The notes beneath the pieces are model-generated. The model did no database searches. It worked only from the letters and a program-made list of their open reading frames with translations, and was not told the DNA's origin. A stretch of 33,250 bases of DNA from an uncultured Gammaproteobacteria bacterium (GTDB lineage Bacteria; Pseudomonadota; Gammaproteobacteria; Enterobacterales; Succinivibrionaceae). The position numbers were made by a program, and so were the translations under genes. Shown in pieces: positions 2,854 to 25,666 of this stretch (the stretch's first letter is position 1; each line of letters starts with the position of its first letter). The stretch lies in assembly GCA_900315395.1 (NCBI GenBank), contig OMZC01000073.1, positions 1 through 33,250 on the forward strand. Direction: 5' to 3'.

Positions 2854-4515
2854 ATGGAAAATGTAGTTGCAGGCTTAAGCACCATTGATTACGTAATCTT
2901 TGGTATTTATGCCCTTGTTGTAATTGCAATTGGTCTATTCGCTTCAAAGAAGAACACCAAGAGCGCAGAAGGCTACTTCTTAGCAGGTAAGTCAATTCCA
3001 TGGTGGGCCGTAGGTGCATCATTGATTGCTGCAAACATCTCTGCTGAGCAGTTCATCGGTATGTCAGGTTCTGGCTATGCTATCGGTTTCGGTATCGCAG
3101 CATACGAGTTCATGGCAGCTATCACCTTAATTCTTGTTGGTAAGTACTTCTTACCTATCTTCATCGAAAAAGGTATTTATACAATTCCTGAGTTCGTTGA
3201 GAAGCGTTTCAACAAGACCTTAAAGACAATTCTTGCTGTATTCTGGATCTGCTTATACATCTTCGTAAATCTGTCATCAGTTCTTTACTTAGGTGGCTTA
3301 GCATTAGAGACAATTTTAGGTATTCCTATGATGTACACTATCTTAGGTTTAGCTGCATTCGCTCTAATCTACTCTGTTTACGGTGGTCTATCAGCTGTTG
3401 TATGGACTGACGTTATCCAGGTTGCAGTTCTAGTAATCGGTGGCTTTGCAACATCATACTTAGCATTAAAGCTAATCGGTGGTGACGCAGGTGCTTTCTC
3501 AGGTTTAGGTACCTTAATCAACGAGATCCCAGATCACTTCACCATGATCTTAGACCAGTCAAATCCACAGTTTAACAACTTACCTGGTATTGCTGTTCTA
3601 ATCGGTGGTCTATGGGTTGCTAACTTATACTACTGGGGCTTCAACCAGTACATCATTCAGCGTACCTTCGCTGCTAAGTCAGTTGATGAAGCTCAGAAGG
3701 GTTTAGCATTTGCTGCATTCTTAAAGTGCATCACCCCTATCATCGTTGTAATTCCTGGTATCGCTGCATACTACATCACTGTACAGAACCCAGCTCTATT
3801 AGAGCAGTTGCAGGCAACTTATGGTGACATCGTAGCTAACAACATTCCTACTGCAACACAGACAGACCGTGCTTACCCATGGGTTGCACAGTTATTACCT
3901 ATCGGTGTTAAGGGCTTAGTATTCGCAGCTCTAGCAGCAGCTATCGTTTCATCTTTAGCTTCAATGTTGAACTCAACAGCTACTATCTTCACAATGGATA
4001 TCTACAAAGAGTATATCAACAAGAATGCTTCTGATATCGCATTAGTAACTGTAGGTCGTATCACTGCTATTGTAGCTTTAGTAATCGCTATCTTCTTAGC
4101 TCCAATGTTAAGCTCTTTAGGTCAGGCATTCCAGTACATCCAAGAGTACACCGGTGTTGTTTCACCTGGTATCTTAGCTGTATTCTTATGCGGTCTGTTC
4201 TACAAGAAGGCAAACTCAAAGGGCGCTGTTGTTGGTGTTCTAGCATCAATCGTAATCGCTCTGTTACTGAAGTTCTTACCTATCAAGATGCCATTCATGG
4301 ATCAGATGTTATACACCTGCATCCTAACCATCGCTATCATCGTATTCGTTTCATTATCAACTAACGAAGGCGACGACGATGCTAAGGCTATTGTTACTAC
4401 CTCAAAGACCTTCAAGACTTCAGGTGGTTTCGCAATCGCATCATATGCAATTCTGTTAATCGTTGCTGTAATTTACGCAGCATTCTGGAACCCAAGCTTA
4501 GGCTTTGCATTCTAA
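2854..4515 (+). CDS. Sodium/sugar symporter, SSS family (vSGLT-like), copy 1
   Basis: This 553-residue membrane protein is strongly similar to Vibrio SGLT, the Na+/galactose symporter, from memory of that sequence. Diagnostic blocks are GYFLAGKSIPWWAVGASLIA (41-60), ANISAEQFIGMSGSGY (60-75) and GGLWVANLYYWGFNQY (251-266). Residues equivalent to the vSGLT galactose site are present: Q66, E85, N257, gate Y260, K291 and a Gln near 427. The vSGLT Ser91 position is Ala88. Sodium-site serines fall at S366-S367. It appears to end after helix 13, lacking the last helix of vSGLT. The ATG at 2854 follows AAGG. Likely substrates are galactose or glucose-type hexoses. It is followed by its own terminator and an 80%-like paralogue. 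Confidence 0.9.
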   Translation: MENVVAGLSTIDYVIFGIYALVVIAIGLFASKKNTKSAEGYFLAGKSIPWWAVGASLIAANISAEQFIGMSGSGYAIGFGIAAYEFMAAITLILVGKYFLPIFIEKGIYTIPEFVEKRFNKTLKTILAVFWICLYIFVNLSSVLYLGGLALETILGIPMMYTILGLAAFALIYSVYGGLSAVVWTDVIQVAVLVIGGFATSYLALKLIGGDAGAFSGLGTLINEIPDHFTMILDQSNPQFNNLPGIAVLIGGLWVANLYYWGFNQYIIQRTFAAKSVDEAQKGLAFAAFLKCITPIIVVIPGIAAYYITVQNPALLEQLQATYGDIVANNIPTATQTDRAYPWVAQLLPIGVKGLVFAALAAAIVSSLASMLNSTATIFTMDIYKEYINKNASDIALVTVGRITAIVALVIAIFLAPMLSSLGQAFQYIQEYTGVVSPGILAVFLCGLFYKKANSKGAVVGVLASIVIALLLKFLPIKMPFMDQMLYTCILTIAIIVFVSLSTNEGDDDAKAIVTTSKTFKTSGGFAIASYAILLIVAVIYAAFWNPSLGFAF

Positions 4516-5129: not shown

Positions 5130-6791
5130 ATGGAAACTGTAACTTCTGGTTTATCTACCATTGATTACATCATCTTTGGTATATATGCTATCGTTGTCTT
5201 GGTTATCGCCCTTTCAGCTTCTCGTAAGAATCACAAGAGTGCTGAGGGTTATTTCTTGGCTGGTAAGTCAATTCCTTGGTGGGCTGTTGGTGCATCACTG
5301 ATTGCTGCTAATATTTCAGCAGAACAGTTCATCGGTATGTCAGGATCTGGCTACGCTATCGGTATGGGTATTGCTGCATACGAAATCATGGCAGCTGTTA
5401 CCTTAATCTTAGTTGGTAAGTACTTCATTCCTATCTTCATCGAAAAAGGTATTTACACCATTCCTGAGTTCGTTGAGAAGCGCTTCAACAAGACCTTAAA
5501 GACAATTCTTGCAGTTTTCTGGATCAGCTTATACATCTTAGTTAACTTAACCTCAGTTCTATACTTAGGCGGTTTAGCATTAGAGACAATCTTAGGTATT
5601 CCTCTAATGTACTCAATCTTAGGTTTAGCTGCATTCGCTTTACTATACTCAGTATATGGCGGTCTATCAGCTGTTGTTTGGACTGACGTTATTCAGGTTG
5701 CAGTTCTTGTAATCGGTGGCTTTGCAACATCATATGTTGCTCTAAAGTGGATTGGTCAAGGCGAAGGCTTCATGGCAGGCTGGTCAGCCTTAGTTAATGA
5801 TGTACCAGAGCACTTTGAAATGATCTTAGACAGATCAAATCCAAACTTCTCTCAGTTACCTGGCATCTCAGTTCTAATCGGTGGTCTTTGGGTTACTAAC
5901 CTTTACTACTGGGGCTTCAACCAGTACATCATTCAGCGTACCTTCGCAGCTAAGTCAGTACATGAAGCTCAGACCGGTCTTGTATTTGCTGGCTTCTTAA
6001 AGTTAATCATTCCTTTAATCTGCGTAATTCCAGGTATTGCAGCTTACTACATCACTGTTCACAATCCTGCTTTATTAGACTCATTAAAAGAGCAGTATGG
6101 CAACCTTGTAATAAACAACATTCCTACAGCTGAACACCCTGATAAGTCATATCCTTGGGTTGCACAGTTACTACCTACAGGTCTAAAAGGTGTTGTATTC
6201 GCAGCTTTAGCAGCAGCTATCGTATCATCACTAGCTTCAATGCTAAACTCAACTGCAACTATCTTCACCATGGATATTTACAAAGAGTACATCAATAAGT
6301 CAGCTTCAGACTTATCATTAGTAAGAGTAGGTCGTTTAACCGCTATCATCGCTTTAATAATCGCAATCTTTATTGCTCCTCTATTAAGCTCTTTAGGTCA
6401 GGCATTCCAGTTCATTCAAGAGTACACCGGCGTAGTATCACCTGGTATCTTATCTGTATTCTTATGCGGTCTGTTCTATAAGAAGGCAAACTCAAAGGGC
6501 GCTGTAGTTGGTGTATTATGCTCAATCGTAATCGCATTCTTACTAAAGTTCTTACCTTTACAGATGGGTTTCTTAGATCAGATGTTCTACAACTGGATTT
6601 TAACCACTGCAATCATCGTATTCGTTTCATTATCAACTAACGACGGTGATGACGATCCTAAGGCTATCGTAACCACAGCTAAGACTTTCAAGACCACTGG
6701 CGGTTATGCTGTAGCAAGCTATGCAATCTTAATTATCGTAGCTGTAATCTACACCGCTTTCTGGAACGTTAAGTTAGGTTGGGCTCTATAA
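5130..6791 (+). CDS. Sodium/sugar symporter, SSS family (vSGLT-like), copy 2
   Basis: This 553-residue paralogue of the preceding gene has the same length and no obvious gaps against it. Substrate-site equivalents Q66, E85, N257, Y260 and K291 and the Ala at 88 are all kept, so a shared or closely related sugar is likely. Most differences fall in the periplasmic-loop regions near 206-245 and 305-340 and in the termini. RNA start: ATG at 5130, preceded by AAAGGGAAAA about 6 bases upstream. It has its own promoter, operator pair and terminator, so the two copies can be expressed independently. A recent tandem duplication with regulatory divergence is the simplest reading. Confidence 0.9.
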   Translation: METVTSGLSTIDYIIFGIYAIVVLVIALSASRKNHKSAEGYFLAGKSIPWWAVGASLIAANISAEQFIGMSGSGYAIGMGIAAYEIMAAVTLILVGKYFIPIFIEKGIYTIPEFVEKRFNKTLKTILAVFWISLYILVNLTSVLYLGGLALETILGIPLMYSILGLAAFALLYSVYGGLSAVVWTDVIQVAVLVIGGFATSYVALKWIGQGEGFMAGWSALVNDVPEHFEMILDRSNPNFSQLPGISVLIGGLWVTNLYYWGFNQYIIQRTFAAKSVHEAQTGLVFAGFLKLIIPLICVIPGIAAYYITVHNPALLDSLKEQYGNLVINNIPTAEHPDKSYPWVAQLLPTGLKGVVFAALAAAIVSSLASMLNSTATIFTMDIYKEYINKSASDLSLVRVGRLTAIIALIIAIFIAPLLSSLGQAFQFIQEYTGVVSPGILSVFLCGLFYKKANSKGAVVGVLCSIVIAFLLKFLPLQMGFLDQMFYNWILTTAIIVFVSLSTNDGDDDPKAIVTTAKTFKTTGGYAVASYAILIIVAVIYTAFWNVKLGWAL

Positions 6792-20882: not shown

Positions 20883-21464
20883 CTACTCTTTGTTTACCTT
20901 TTCTATCTTGCCTATAGATTGTTTCTTAACAATCACTGTCTCTGAGTTACCATCTAAAAGATTCTTTTTAAGCTCTTCTTTCTGTTCATACTTCATAGCA
21001 TCTTTATGAGAGATCTTAGAGTCAGAATCTAACATCATGTTACTGTTAACCCACTTCTGGAAGGTCTTAGTACGCTCATCAGCTTCCCTAGGACCATTAT
21101 TAACGGTCTGAGATGCTGTTTTTTGTTCTTTATTGTTCTCTAAATCTGGAGCTTTTTCTTCAGGAGTTGGCTCATCACTAACTAATGAATCTGCATCTGC
21201 CTGCTTTCTTAAGGCGTTATAGTAATCAGCCTTATCGTTTTCAGCTTGATTTTTCTGCTTATCAAAAGCTCTTCTCTGGAAAGAATGAGCCTGATCTTGT
21301 TTTAAAGATTCACGCAGGCGAGCTCTCTTTAAATCTAATTCCTGTTTTTTAATTGCCTGCTCTGTCTGTGCATTTACGTCGTCAATGCTTTCTGCATTAG
21401 CGATAAATAAAGATGAAAAGAATGAGATTAGAGTCGCAACTGTAATCTTAAAAAAATGCTTCAT
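20883..21464 (-). CDS. Exported Lys/Glu/Gln-rich protein with C-terminal W-N-L motif
   Basis: The ATG at 21464 gives 193 residues; an in-frame GTG three codons upstream is less likely. The signal peptide MKHFFKITVATLISFF... has a good cleavage site after IANA. The mature part is a charged helix-like region (to about residue 100), a Pro/Glu/Asn-rich linker, then FQKWVNSNMMLDSDSK and a Lys-rich end. The FQKWVNSNMML segment resembles LSDWMKQNALLNDDEK at the end of the protein at 21723, suggesting that the two are related. No enzyme motif. Function unknown; a periplasmic structural or adaptor role is possible but unsupported. Confidence 0.72.
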   Translation of the reverse strand: MKHFFKITVATLISFFSSLFIANAESIDDVNAQTEQAIKKQELDLKRARLRESLKQDQAHSFQRRAFDKQKNQAENDKADYYNALRKQADADSLVSDEPTPEEKAPDLENNKEQKTASQTVNNGPREADERTKTFQKWVNSNMMLDSDSKISHKDAMKYEQKEELKKNLLDGNSETVIVKKQSIGKIEKVNKE

Positions 21465-21722
21465 AATATCCACTGCTTGGAAATTAAAATCTTAACGTTA
21501 CGTTTTTATTTCCTACTAATTCAGTATAGTTCTAAAAAGTTCAAATTACTATCAAAATAAGAATAAATTTTATTTTGTATTTTGATGCTCTAATGAAGAG
21601 CAACAATCACTTTCATCTGAGAATTGTAAGAATTGGAATCGTCTTAATTTTGATTATTTTATTATACAAATTAAGTAGTAGCATGAGAGATACTTAAATT
21701 GATAAATGAGATCTTGAAAGGA

Positions 21723-22196
21723 CTATTTCTCATCATCATTTAAAAGAGCGTTCTGTTTCATCCAGTCAGACAGCCCTTTAGCTTTAACTTTGCCTGTCTT
21801 ATTTTTAAAAGCAGAACCATCAGATGAGCTACCTGTTGTGGAGCTTTCAGAGCTAATCCCCTGTTTTTCTAAGATCTTTTCACCTCTTTTTCTTGAGGTG
21901 TCTTCCTGAAAACTCTGCTGTGTTTTAGGATCAACTTTATCGTAAAGTTTTTCCTGACTTATATACTGTGAGCTACTGACTCTAAGTCTCATCTGATCAT
22001 AGGTCTTTGAATGCTCTAACTGTTGACGCAGATAGTATCTTTTTTCATTATTCTCTTGAGTACTGTACTCAGTGACAGAGCTAGGATATGAGTACTGTCT
22101 AGGATAGAGGAAAAAATCAGAAATAATGACAACCACCATCAGACCTAAGCCCAGTCTGATTGCCACTTTTCTTCTTTTAAATAGGCCTGAATCCAA
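21723..22196 (-). CDS. Small type II membrane protein related to neighbouring exported protein
   Basis: This 157-residue protein begins with a short basic segment (FKRRK), one membrane helix (LGLGLMVVVIISDFFLY, about residues 16-32) and a long hydrophilic outer part rich in Gln, Ser, Lys and Glu, ending in LSDWMKQNALLNDDEK. Translation appears to start at TTG 22196, because AAGAGGA sits 7 bases ahead and no ATG precedes the helix; a GTG ten codons in is the alternative. The end motif matches that of the protein at 20883, and RGEKIL resembles HGEEIL in the protein at 18824. No known family recognised. Confidence 0.7.
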   Translation of the reverse strand: MDSGLFKRRKVAIRLGLGLMVVVIISDFFLYPRQYSYPSSVTEYSTQENNEKRYYLRQQLEHSKTYDQMRLRVSSSQYISQEKLYDKVDPKTQQSFQEDTSRKRGEKILEKQGISSESSTTGSSSDGSAFKNKTGKVKAKGLSDWMKQNALLNDDEK

Positions 22197-22262: not shown

Positions 22263-22886
22263 CTACTCAAAATCAGAAACATCTCCAGAGCCGTAACGAG
22301 CAATCTCAGGGACTCCATCATTGAAGACAATCACTGAAGTTGGGCTTGGAGACAACACGCCACCATCAACGATGACATCAACTACAGAACCAATTTCGTC
22401 ATTGATGGTTACAGGATCTGACTCTGCATCTTCATGATCCGGAAGAATCAAAGAGCAACTCATTAAAGGCTCGTTTAACTCACTAATAATCGCATCAACA
22501 ATTGCATTAGCTGGCACTCTAATACCGATAGTCTTTCTCTTTTCGTTCATCAGACGACGAGGCACTTCCTTAGTAGCTGGAAGAATAAAGGTATAAGCAC
22601 CAGGAGTGTGATTCTTTAGTAATCTAAATACACTATTTTCAACTTTTGCATAAGTTGATAATTCAGAAAGATCACGACATAACAGAGTAAAGTTATGGTG
22701 TTTATCAACCTGTCTGATTCTGGCAATTCTTTCCATTGCCTGCTTTTGCTCTAGCTTACAGCAGAGTGCATAAGCTGAATCTGTTGGGATAACCACAACT
22801 CCACCATTATTTAGACATTCACAGATCTGCTTAATAAAACGTGGCTGTGGATTGTCTGGGTGAACACTGATAAATTGTGCTGACAT
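22263..22886 (-). CDS. yciO: YciO, Sua5/YciO/YrdC-family protein
   Basis: This 207-residue protein closely matches E. coli YciO (206). The Sua5/TsaC fold binds nucleotide and forms threonylcarbamoyl-AMP in its best-known members. YciO is a divergent branch whose cellular role is less certain than that of TsaC. Matching segments are FISVHPDNPQPR, VIPTDSAYAL, RIRQ, HNFTLLCRDLSELSTY, TKEVPRRLMNEKRKTIGIRVP, and the closing ARYGSGDVSDF. The ATG at 22886 has AAAGAG about 9 bases upstream. A palindromic element 160 bases upstream may contain its promoter. Confidence 0.93.
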   Translation of the reverse strand: MSAQFISVHPDNPQPRFIKQICECLNNGGVVVIPTDSAYALCCKLEQKQAMERIARIRQVDKHHNFTLLCRDLSELSTYAKVENSVFRLLKNHTPGAYTFILPATKEVPRRLMNEKRKTIGIRVPANAIVDAIISELNEPLMSCSLILPDHEDAESDPVTINDEIGSVVDVIVDGGVLSPSPTSVIVFNDGVPEIARYGSGDVSDFE

Positions 22887-23107: not shown

Positions 23108-24493
23108 TTACTGTTGATTTTCAGTTGTAGGAACAGAGTTATCTAAAGTTTCTTTCTTCTCTTCAGTAGCTACTTTCTTTATTTCATCATCATTAGCAGC
23201 TTTTTCTACAGCTGTTTCTTCTGTTTTAGTTAAAACAGGTGCCTGAGCTGTTGTGCTTTTAACTGGTGCTGATGCTACCTGTTTTGGAACATCAATAACG
23301 TTCTCTTCCTCTTGTACTGTCTCTTCTTTGTACTCAATATCAAGTGCACCGAAGATCTCTGATAGAGGAATTCTCTCTAAAGGTAAACGTGCTTTTCTGC
23401 CAAAGACACCAGCTGCTAACATATTATATAAAGTAGCTTCTGTTGAAGTTAATGCCATTGAGGTATTGAGCTCTTCAATTTCAATATCATCAAATGACCA
23501 TAAATCAGAATTAGCCTCAAAGAATTCTCTGCTTAAAGTTACGCTCTTGGTATTTGGCAAGTGAACGCGCAGATTGTTCAATACAGCAAAGGCTTTCATT
23601 TCAATATTTGAAACATAAGCGCATTGAGCATGTGCAATCCATGGAATAGTACATACTCTTGAGGTCTGGAAGGGTAAAACAAGACATACCATACCAGGTA
23701 CATCAGGTACTGATAAAGCTGTTGCTAAATCATCAAAGAATAAGACTTTGCGTGGCTTGATATCAAGCTTTGCCAAATCTTCAACGGTAATGCCAATATC
23801 GCGTAGACCACCTACTCTGCTACGTAAAAGTTTGTCTAATAAAACTAAACGAACAGTAGGAGCTGGAGGTACTAAACCTAGCTGTAATAAATCTCTTCTT
23901 AATGGATTTAAGTCTAGGTACTTGCGCATAAATGCAAGCACTACGAATCTGTACTTTTCAAACCATAAAGTATCAACACCACGTACAGGGATCTGACGGA
24001 TCATAGATGAAGAATCTTTATGAGCACATAACCACTTGCATACAAGTAAGAATCGCTCAAAATCCTGATCTTCTAGAGTGGTTAAAGCATGAATATTTTC
24101 TACAGCAGAATCTAATAGTTCAGGTAAATTTTTCTTTACAGTCTGAAGGCGGTTTTGAGCTGAGTGGAATTCCACAAGATGACCTGCCCAAGCAGCAAGT
24201 TCATCAACTTTCTCAAAAACCAAATGAATAGGTACTTCGATTTTTCCTAGGTCAGGATAAGTCTTATCTAAGAACTCAACTTTTCCTGCATTAAGCTCTT
24301 TGTGCCAATCGTTACAGAAACGAACAAACTCATCTTTATTTGTCAGTACGTCCTCATCACGAGTAGGAGCGCCCAAATAAATTCTTACAGCTTCAAAATT
24401 CTTTTTAGACTTGACTGAATCACTTAGCCAGCCTATTACTCTTTCGTTATATAGTGCATTAATTTCTGCACGAATGCTGTTGCGTGTTTTCAC
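23108..24493 (-). CDS. Orphan JetD-like protein (DUF3322-DUF2220) with degenerate Toprim site
   Basis: This 461-residue protein has the two-domain pattern of JetD, the Toprim nuclease of the Wadjet anti-plasmid system. A DUF3322-like part (about 1-200) ends in RQIPVRGVDTLWFEK (166-180, family YLRQ-GVDTKFIE). A DUF2220-like part (about 201-385) follows with VRLVLLD, then LFFDDL (251-256), AYVSNIEMKAFAVL (292-305) and RLPLERI (369-375). In active members the last three read vENE, YWGDIDTHGFAIL and RLEQERI, so the catalytic acidic residues appear lost. A Glu/Thr/Val-rich disordered tail spans 388-461. The GTG at 24493 has GAGGAG 8 bases upstream. No jetA, jetB or jetC lies within the window. Homology is called from family pattern memory; function is unknown. 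Confidence 0.72.
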   Translation of the reverse strand: MKTRNSIRAEINALYNERVIGWLSDSVKSKKNFEAVRIYLGAPTRDEDVLTNKDEFVRFCNDWHKELNAGKVEFLDKTYPDLGKIEVPIHLVFEKVDELAAWAGHLVEFHSAQNRLQTVKKNLPELLDSAVENIHALTTLEDQDFERFLLVCKWLCAHKDSSSMIRQIPVRGVDTLWFEKYRFVVLAFMRKYLDLNPLRRDLLQLGLVPPAPTVRLVLLDKLLRSRVGGLRDIGITVEDLAKLDIKPRKVLFFDDLATALSVPDVPGMVCLVLPFQTSRVCTIPWIAHAQCAYVSNIEMKAFAVLNNLRVHLPNTKSVTLSREFFEANSDLWSFDDIEIEELNTSMALTSTEATLYNMLAAGVFGRKARLPLERIPLSEIFGALDIEYKEETVQEEENVIDVPKQVASAPVKSTTAQAPVLTKTEETAVEKAANDDEIKKVATEEKKETLDNSVPTTENQQ

Positions 24494-24574
24494 TGCTGTA
24501 GCTCCTCAAAACAAGGTCACATCGTTATTATTATTTATATAATGCAGAATAATCTTAAATCTGCTCATCTGCAT

Positions 24575-24743: not shown

Positions 24744-25247
24744 CTATGAGTTATTTGCCTCTTCTGCTGACTGTTTTTTCTGCTCTTTTTTAGCCTTTCG
24801 GCGCTCTTTAAAGAATTTAGATAACAGCATGGAGCATTCATCTCTTAAGATGCCTCCTTCAACTTTGATCTCATGATTGTGCTTTGGATTTGAGATTAAA
24901 TTAAAGGCTGATCCACAAGCTCCAGTTTTTAAGTCATACGCTCCAAAATAGAGATTTTTAAGTCTTGAATGAATTAAAGCCATGGCACACATGCAGCATG
25001 GCTCCAAAGTCACGTAGATTGAATAGTCAGGAAAGCGGTAATTTGAAACAGCCTTGCCTAATGCACGCAAGGCAACAATTTCAGCATGAGCTGATGGATC
25101 ATTTGAACTGATTGTCTGATTGTAGCCTGTAGCTATAACCTCTCCCTTAGGATCTACGATAACCGCACCTACAGGGATCTCTCCTACTGCTTTAGCCTTT
25201 AATGCTTCTTTAAAGGCTAAAGACATGTAATATTCATGATCTTGCAT
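24744..25247 (-). CDS. tadA: tRNA adenosine(34) deaminase
   Basis: This 167-residue protein, the same length as E. coli TadA, deaminates A34 to inosine in tRNA-Arg(ACG). Zinc ligands are H54 in HAE, with catalytic E56, and C84 and C87 in PCCMC. IPVGAVIV and N43 in the substrate loop are also typical. The ATG at 25247 has only a weak ribosome site (TAGTAG). It lies 29 bases behind dgkA on the same strand and is probably cotranscribed with it. The C-terminal tail is Lys/Glu/Ala-rich, as in many TadA proteins. Confidence 0.95.
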   Translation of the reverse strand: MQDHEYYMSLAFKEALKAKAVGEIPVGAVIVDPKGEVIATGYNQTISSNDPSAHAEIVALRALGKAVSNYRFPDYSIYVTLEPCCMCAMALIHSRLKNLYFGAYDLKTGACGSAFNLISNPKHNHEIKVEGGILRDECSMLLSKFFKERRKAKKEQKKQSAEEANNS

Positions 25248-25276: not shown

Positions 25277-25666
25277 TCAAATGCAGTGATCAGCAATAAT
25301 TACTACCCATGTTACTAAAGTCAAGATCAGCATTACAAATACAGCTGCTGATCCTAAATCTTTAGCACGGCCTGATAGTTCATTAAATTCAGTACCAATT
25401 CTGTCAACTACTGCTTCAATACCTGAATTTAAAAGTTCAGTTACAACAGTAATCCATGGCATTGCAATTAAAGCTAACAGCTCTAATGTTGAATAAGCAA
25501 AATCTGAAAAATATCTTAAATAAAAAGCGACAGCAGTTAAAATTACAGCAAGGAACATCTCCTGTCTGATTGCAGCTTCATTTTCAAGACCTGCTTTAAA
25601 ACCTTTCATGCTGTATTTACCAGCATTATAAATTCTTACTAATCCTTTTTTCTGTACCTTTGCCAT
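25277..25666 (-). CDS. dgkA: Diacylglycerol kinase
   Basis: This 129-residue integral membrane protein (E. coli 122) has an amphipathic N-terminus, ENEAAIRQE at 28-36, and three membrane helices. The signature ELLNSGIEAVVDRIGTEFN is at 77-95, followed by SGRAKDLGSAAV at 98-109. It phosphorylates diacylglycerol released by membrane-derived oligosaccharide and lipopolysaccharide modification. E77 is the catalytic-site glutamate. AAGGATGACTT precedes the ATG at 25666. Confidence 0.96.
   Translation of the reverse strand: MAKVQKKGLVRIYNAGKYSMKGFKAGLENEAAIRQEMFLAVILTAVAFYLRYFSDFAYSTLELLALIAMPWITVVTELLNSGIEAVVDRIGTEFNELSGRAKDLGSAAVFVMLILTLVTWVVIIADHCI

Follow-up and report, generated by a model that had tools for sequence, protein, structure and literature searches.

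The window, by which we mean the whole stretch of 33,250 nucleotides analysed, contains an open reading frame of 461 residues on the reverse strand at 23108–24493. According to the sequence and the profile searches, it encodes a relative of JetD that is full-length but altered at the Toprim site, and it is called the orphan below. Its coordinates, strand and length were given correctly in the first-pass annotation. The features are as follows.

23108..24493, minus strand: orphan JetD-like gene, 461 residues, GTG start (open reading frame and profile matches)
24502..24507, minus strand: GAGGAG ribosome site, 8 bases ahead of the GTG (sequence)
23933..24475, minus strand: CAP-like N-terminal domain, DUF3322, residues 7–187; of the two halves, the better conserved among the orphans
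23357..23875, minus strand: Toprim-like C-terminal domain, JetD_C, residues 207–379 (Pfam)
23729..23734, minus strand: D254-D255, where other JetDs have Glu-Asn (MksG E236; E248 of the 8q72 JetD)
23600..23617, minus strand: YVSNIE (293–298), YWGDxD in other JetDs; N296 replaces the Asp that is MksG D279
23372..23386, minus strand: LPLER (370–374), LEQER or a close form in other JetDs; E373 is kept
23111..23338, minus strand: acidic low-complexity C-terminal tail, residues 386–461, net charge −9; far longer than the tails of other JetDs
24744..25247, minus strand: tadA (tRNA adenosine deaminase), the gene most often found 5' of the orphan outside genus g2
25277..25666, minus strand: dgkA (diacylglycerol kinase), usual second 5' neighbour
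22263..22886, minus strand: tsaC/Sua5, found 3' of the orphan only in part of the genus

The orphan is flanked by tadA-dgkA on the 5' side and by tsaC on the 3' side, which is the housekeeping setting described before. The codon use is native, as was also described (r = 0.93 against 11 other genes of the window), and the GC content is 0.376, close to the 0.365 of the window. The closest named record is from Succinivibrio faecicola (Succinivibrionaceae). Several other genes of the window were seen in passing. The stretch 558–2227 contains an HNH endonuclease gene, which shows a match below the cut-off to a phosphorothioate-DNA restriction enzyme model, and beside it a 214-aa reading frame with no Pfam family. 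Two sodium:solute symporter genes of the same length (553 aa) are located in tandem at 2854–4515 and 5130–6791. Two reading frames at 20883–22196, of 196 and 157 aa, lack any noteworthy family match; the 157-aa frame is found again downstream of tsaC in some genomes of the genus, with 30–34% identity.

In the Pfam search, DUF3322 (residues 7–187, E = 2.7e-26) and JetD_C (residues 207–379, E = 8.5e-17) are both matched well above the curated cut-offs. The PADLOC JetD1 model matches residues 1–385 (2.3e-63), and the single solved chain matched by phmmer is MksG 8b7f (residues 71–324, 6.7e-19). No NCBIfam model is matched up to E = 1. The two domains are present in the order of the JetD/MksG family and at full length, and all 25 members of A1 match both models. 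The JetD (DUF3322-DUF2220) assignment over about 385 residues, proposed from the sequence at first, is borne out by the Pfam, PADLOC and 8b7f matches, and the profile matches to both domains are significant. The orphan is a JetD homologue.

For the motif census, 38 orphan orthologues were aligned with 38 other JetDs. The latter are extracted frames outside the orphan clade that match the search model, irrespective of motif; nine are from Succinivibrionaceae and the remainder from the order and class, and jetC was profile-checked beside only five of the 38 and in the operon of the window's own genome. In the 8b7f alignment, the VEN motif contains MksG E236 and the YWGDLD motif contains D279 (chain position minus 106). 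The mutations E236A and D279A drastically impaired cleavage by MksG of Corynebacterium glutamicum, according to the available sections of PMC10123090. At column 296 (MksG D279), the other JetDs have Asp in 38 of 38 sequences, whereas the orphans have Ser (25), Gly (11) or Asn (2). At column 254 (MksG E236), the other JetDs have Glu in 38 of 38, whereas the orphans have Asp (30) or Glu (8); the E248A mutation of the 8q72 JetD falls in this column. Thus, of the acids by which a Wadjet nuclease was tested, the first Asp of DxD is found in none of the 38 orphans and in all of the other JetDs, and the Glu is kept in only eight orphans. Trp at column 294 and Gly at columns 275 and 301 are lost in all 38 orphans. 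Column 371 is Glu in 37 other JetDs (with one gap) and is occupied in the orphans by Asp (18), Pro (14), Ala (3), Glu (2) or Ser (1), which makes it acidic in 20 of 38. Glu373 is present in every orphan, and Asp or Glu is present at column 298 in 34. When 26 orphans are compared, their commonest residue differs at 16 of the 38 positions that the other JetDs conserve. Over all 38 orphans, the usual Asp returns as the commonest residue at two of these 16 (columns 298 and 321).

The motifs of the orphan were read correctly in the first-pass annotation as FFDD, YVSNIE and LPLER. The site named there as ENE is altered at E and N as claimed; the third position is variable among other JetDs (ENL, ENV, ENK and END also occur), so only E and N count. 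When the Toprim domain is aligned with other JetDs, the missing acids are not found displaced to other positions. The proposed catalytic degeneracy is thereby upheld, the essential first Asp of DxD being absent from 38 of 38 copies. The Glu is changed to Asp in most copies, and an acidic remnant persists.

The orphan gene is under purifying selection. Ten orphan pairs were compared over the first 385 codons; the nine usable pairs gave dN/dS of 0.026–0.223, three of the dS values used exceeding 1.3, and the tenth gave no usable dS. The value is below that of tadA in five of the eight pairs where both were obtainable. The frame is open in 38 of 38 genomes, and the gene is maintained, as had been claimed. 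The selection is distributed unusually over the two domains. Among 26 orphans, the CAP domain is more conserved than the Toprim domain in 287 of 325 pairs (mean identity 0.575 versus 0.492), whereas the reverse is observed among 36 other JetDs, where the identities are 0.272 and 0.390 and the CAP domain is ahead in 2 of 630 pairs (in both sets the pairs are not independent, and the partial sequences C_L097 and C_L104 were omitted). In the group nearest to the orphans, which comprises six JetDs, the CAP domain is ahead in none of 15 pairs. At matched divergence of 40–55%, the CAP/Toprim identities are 0.521/0.424 for the orphans (n = 214) and 0.430/0.513 for the others (n = 89). The domain constraint is therefore reversed in the orphans, with CAP held harder than the cutting domain.

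Since acids are kept at columns 254 and 373, it is possible from the sequence that the orphan is still a changed enzyme with a changed metal site. The chief rival to a loss of nuclease function is for this reason a rewired metal enzyme, in which D/E254, D/E298 and E373 would hold the metal and another substrate would be used by nicking, phosphodiester or nucleotide chemistry. The acid at 254 and E373 in every copy, D/E298 in most, and the restriction of column 296 to Ser, Gly or Asn favour such an enzyme; the Asp of column 296, however, is needed in MksG (PMC10123090, available sections). The loss of the Trp 294, Gly 275 and Gly 301 columns, the five different residues at column 371 and the lower conservation of the Toprim half also argue against it. 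We regard a rewired enzyme as unlikely.

The genomes searched are for the most part drafts. The orphan was found with more than 300 bits in 38 of 56 Succinivibrionaceae genomes, and all other matches in these genomes have 61 bits or fewer. By genus, it is present in 18 of 19 genomes of g1, 10 of 10 of g2, four of five of g4, both genomes of g9 and both of g13, and in one each of g3 and g14. Among the 56 genomes it is absent from genera g5, g6, g7, g8, g10, g11 and g12. Two genomes counted as lacking it are G070 (89% complete, with a distant JetD match only) and G017 (59% complete). In the sample of the order (394 genomes), all matches above 570 bits are from Succinivibrionaceae, and the next best has 161 bits; in the sample of the class (369 genomes), the best match after that of the window itself has 236 bits and is a JetD whose motifs are intact.

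An unrooted tree was built from 62 JetDs; the partial C_L097 and C_L104 were omitted, C_L085 was cut to its last 420 residues and the orphans were cut to their first 420. The 26 orphans form one clade in this tree (support 100/100), and the stem of the clade measures 2.32 changes per column. This clade spans seven genera. The nearest sequences are six gammaproteobacterial JetDs (L078–L083, 97/89), and the branch joining these six with the orphans has support of 95/88. The GyrA tree, which covers 22 genomes, requires two changes. The distribution is most simply explained by a single gain in the family followed by a single loss, in G029 (genus g12); this is the best reading of a single-gene species tree built by a quick method, with several weak forks and two partial GyrAs. 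G029 is 98% complete and lies inside the clade, so there is at least one genome of high completeness without the orphan, which indicates that the gene is not indispensable.

Close copies on mobile elements were not found in the sets searched. Nine plasmid records contain distant matches only, the best about 25% identical; no match was found in the phage set or in PHROGs, and pattern scans of viral contigs gave one JetD fragment and no orphan. With one gain and one loss on the GyrA tree, and with no close plasmid, phage or viral copy, the orphan does not behave as a mobile defence gene. For the immunity or anti-defence function suggested earlier, no evidence was obtained; vertical inheritance in one family argues against both, as does the failure to find close copies in the plasmid, phage and viral sets searched.

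No jet gene is present within the 33,250-nt window. The genome to which the window belongs (G000), however, contains a complete type I jetABCD on contig C51 (L045:2985-10195), next to a UvrA-like frame, and searches of the whole genome with JetA, JetB and the SbcC/JetC Walker B model gave matches on this contig only. The earlier statement that Jet partners are absent therefore holds for the window only and fails for the genome. Of 36 genomes of the family, 26 have the orphan and 10 do not; jetA and jetB are both present in 17 of the former and 6 of the latter, so there is no association. Nine of the 26 have no complete jetA-jetB pair: eight have neither gene, and in G021 only a fragment of jetA is present; five of these nine are drafts of 87–89% completeness. 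In none of the 26 genomes is jetA or jetB encoded near the orphan, as would be the case for a Wadjet nuclease. They are absent or on other contigs, except in G014, a single contig that, if circular, separates the orphan from jetAB by about 0.3 Mb. The orphan is thus independent of jetAB, and with nine genomes lacking a complete pair a Wadjet-linked role is not supported. As it lacks two tested defining features, the acids and the operon, we read it as a JetD homologue but not as a Wadjet nuclease.

The same results bear on the idea that the orphan regulates or antagonises Wadjet, for example as a dead JetD that replaces the nuclease on JetABC and protects the host DNA. It is indeed a JetD homologue, and the 17 genomes with jetA and jetB include its own. 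But jetA and jetB are also present in 6 of the 10 genomes without the orphan, 9 of the 26 with it have no complete pair, orphan and jetAB share a contig in none of the 17 genomes except G014, and the JetD of its own genome is distant from it, elsewhere in the tree. Such a regulator is very unlikely.

The Succinivibrionaceae seem to lack a housekeeping condensin, according to searches for MukB, ScpA and SMC_N. MukB gave weak matches only in 36 family genomes (27.5 bits or fewer, mostly in jetC frames), whereas nine genomes of the order score 342–408; no ScpA was found in 22 family genomes; and in 11 family genomes, among the SMC_N matches listed, only frames of RecF and RecN size are on top (named from length). 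Two of the weak MukB matches lie in 502-aa frames of G002 and G009. G014, with 3.5 Mb in a single contig, is among these family genomes.

Whether the orphan is suited to DNA binding was judged from conserved residues and from the charge of the CAP domain. Column 176 is an invariant Lys in other JetDs; none of the 38 orphans has Lys there, and 14 have Arg. Column 217 is an invariant Arg in other JetDs, and Arg is kept in five of 38 orphans. The net charge of the CAP domain averages −6.1 in the orphans (zero or below in 36 of 38) and +4.7 in the other JetDs (zero or below in 5 of 34, with C_L082, C_L085, C_L097 and C_L104 left out). The CAP domain is also negative in four of nine ordinary Succinivibrionaceae JetDs, one of them from the window's own genome, so the charge is only weak evidence against DNA binding. 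The DNA-binding role offered in the first-pass annotation is weakened by the two changed columns and the charge, though the ordinary JetDs of the family blunt the latter point. These results and the condensin searches were also considered for a DNA binder that organises the chromosome and helps a family without condensins. The missing MukB and ScpA and the RecF- and RecN-sized SMC_N frames agree with it; the seven genera without the orphan, however, have no real MukB either, and the changed Lys 176 and Arg 217 columns and the negative average charge fit it badly. The chance of such an organiser is slight, and both it and the Wadjet regulator are poorly supported as explanations.

The added tail noticed at first, residues 386–461, is confirmed as acidic and of low complexity. 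The tails are net negative in 38 of 38 orphans, with a median of 66 residues (3–191) against 2–16 in 34 other JetDs; 33 of 38 have more than 16 residues and five have 3–16.

In 22 of 38 genomes (19 of 26 and 3 of 12), tadA precedes the orphan on the same strand by no more than 550 bp. In three genomes (G008, G020 and G031) tadA is 1.3–5.4 kb upstream, and in one (G004) the contig ends. No tadA was found upstream in 11 of 38, namely all ten g2 genomes and G071, where the stretch read was 1.5–2.1 kb in nine and about 10 kb in G019 and G032. In G018, tadA and the orphan form a single frame of 669 aa (L054:848-2857); this may be a fusion, a lost stop codon or an assembly fault, and was not weighed as evidence. 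In the neighbour clustering, no gene besides tadA and dgkA was seen to recur beside the orphan across most genera. We take the adjacency to tadA as a lead only.

A decaying relic of a Wadjet operon would also have lost its catalytic site and its operon partners, but an intact frame in every genome, low dN/dS and a single clade across seven genera do not fit decay, and this reading is hardly credible.

We consider that the orphan was domesticated together with loss of the JetD-type nuclease function, with a probability of about 0.7. A JetD gene akin to that of the type I Wadjet nuclease would have been gained a single time, in an ancestor on the Succinivibrio side of the family. The Toprim metal site was probably lost early after the gain, and the gene would since have been inherited vertically, free of jetABC and under purifying selection. 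The protein presumably does not cut DNA. It may persist as a putative, probably dimeric, scaffold that plays a constitutive role outside defence and holds a partner by its N-terminal CAP domain. A protein is a likelier partner than DNA, and the acidic tail may tune the binding. The step from CAP to a protein partner, taken alone, is tentative and has less than an even chance. An AlphaFold2 model of the orphan from three sequences (the window, L031 and L032) had a pLDDT of 39, which is too poor for judging the Toprim dimer. The full proposal is that a plasmid-cutting nuclease of an SMC system was turned, in a single domestication, into a core protein that no longer cuts and whose CAP domain serves a constitutive process. 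It would be a Wadjet effector exapted outside defence, in a family where no MukB, ScpA or full-size Smc was found. It is offered as a conjecture that we would sooner doubt than assert.

In the literature examined, JetD features solely as the nuclease that an anti-plasmid SMC complex uses. An apparently nuclease-dead JetD that is family-wide, under selection and without its SMC genes would mean that the fold is useful without cutting and without a motor. In a family of gut bacteria, a DNA-cutting weapon has seemingly been turned to another use, and is now an ordinary, strongly preserved chromosomal gene. As the orphan scores 2.3e-63 against a JetD model, a profile match alone need not mean defence. 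The 38 orphans are a natural set showing which parts of JetD matter once cleavage no longer does.

Among known systems, MksG of C. glutamicum (8b7f) shares the order of DUF3322 and Toprim, residues 71–324 of the orphan being aligned with it. MksG has and needs E236 and D279, where the orphan has Asp and Asn, and works with MksBEF, according to the available sections of PMC10123090; no such genes are beside the orphan. The JetDs of L078–L083, the nearest group in the unrooted tree, are from six gammaproteobacterial genomes and, unlike the orphans, have intact motifs; the gene is directly 3' of jetC in the five with upstream sequence. The JetD of the window's own genome (G000:C51, L045:2985-4208) is of the same family. 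The orphan profile reaches it weakly (1.7e-7) and a plain sequence search with the orphan did not reach it; in contrast to the orphan, it belongs to a full jetABCD operon, has ENV, GDLD and LEQE intact and lies on a distant branch of the tree. The 8q72 JetD (E248A variant), which we take to be that of E. coli GF4-3, and 7til (Pseudomonas aeruginosa PA14) fall in the same family in a profile search with alignment A2, which combines the orphan with twelve other JetDs. Both have the EN (A in the mutant), GDxD and LEQE motifs and are part of JetABCD, and the orphan differs in these respects. No nuclease-dead or free-standing JetD was found in the open literature searched. Spo11 and the topoisomerase VI A subunit differ from the orphan by a catalytic tyrosine and metal acids. 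They have in common with it an architecture of a CAP-like domain and a Toprim domain (PMC10123090, available sections).
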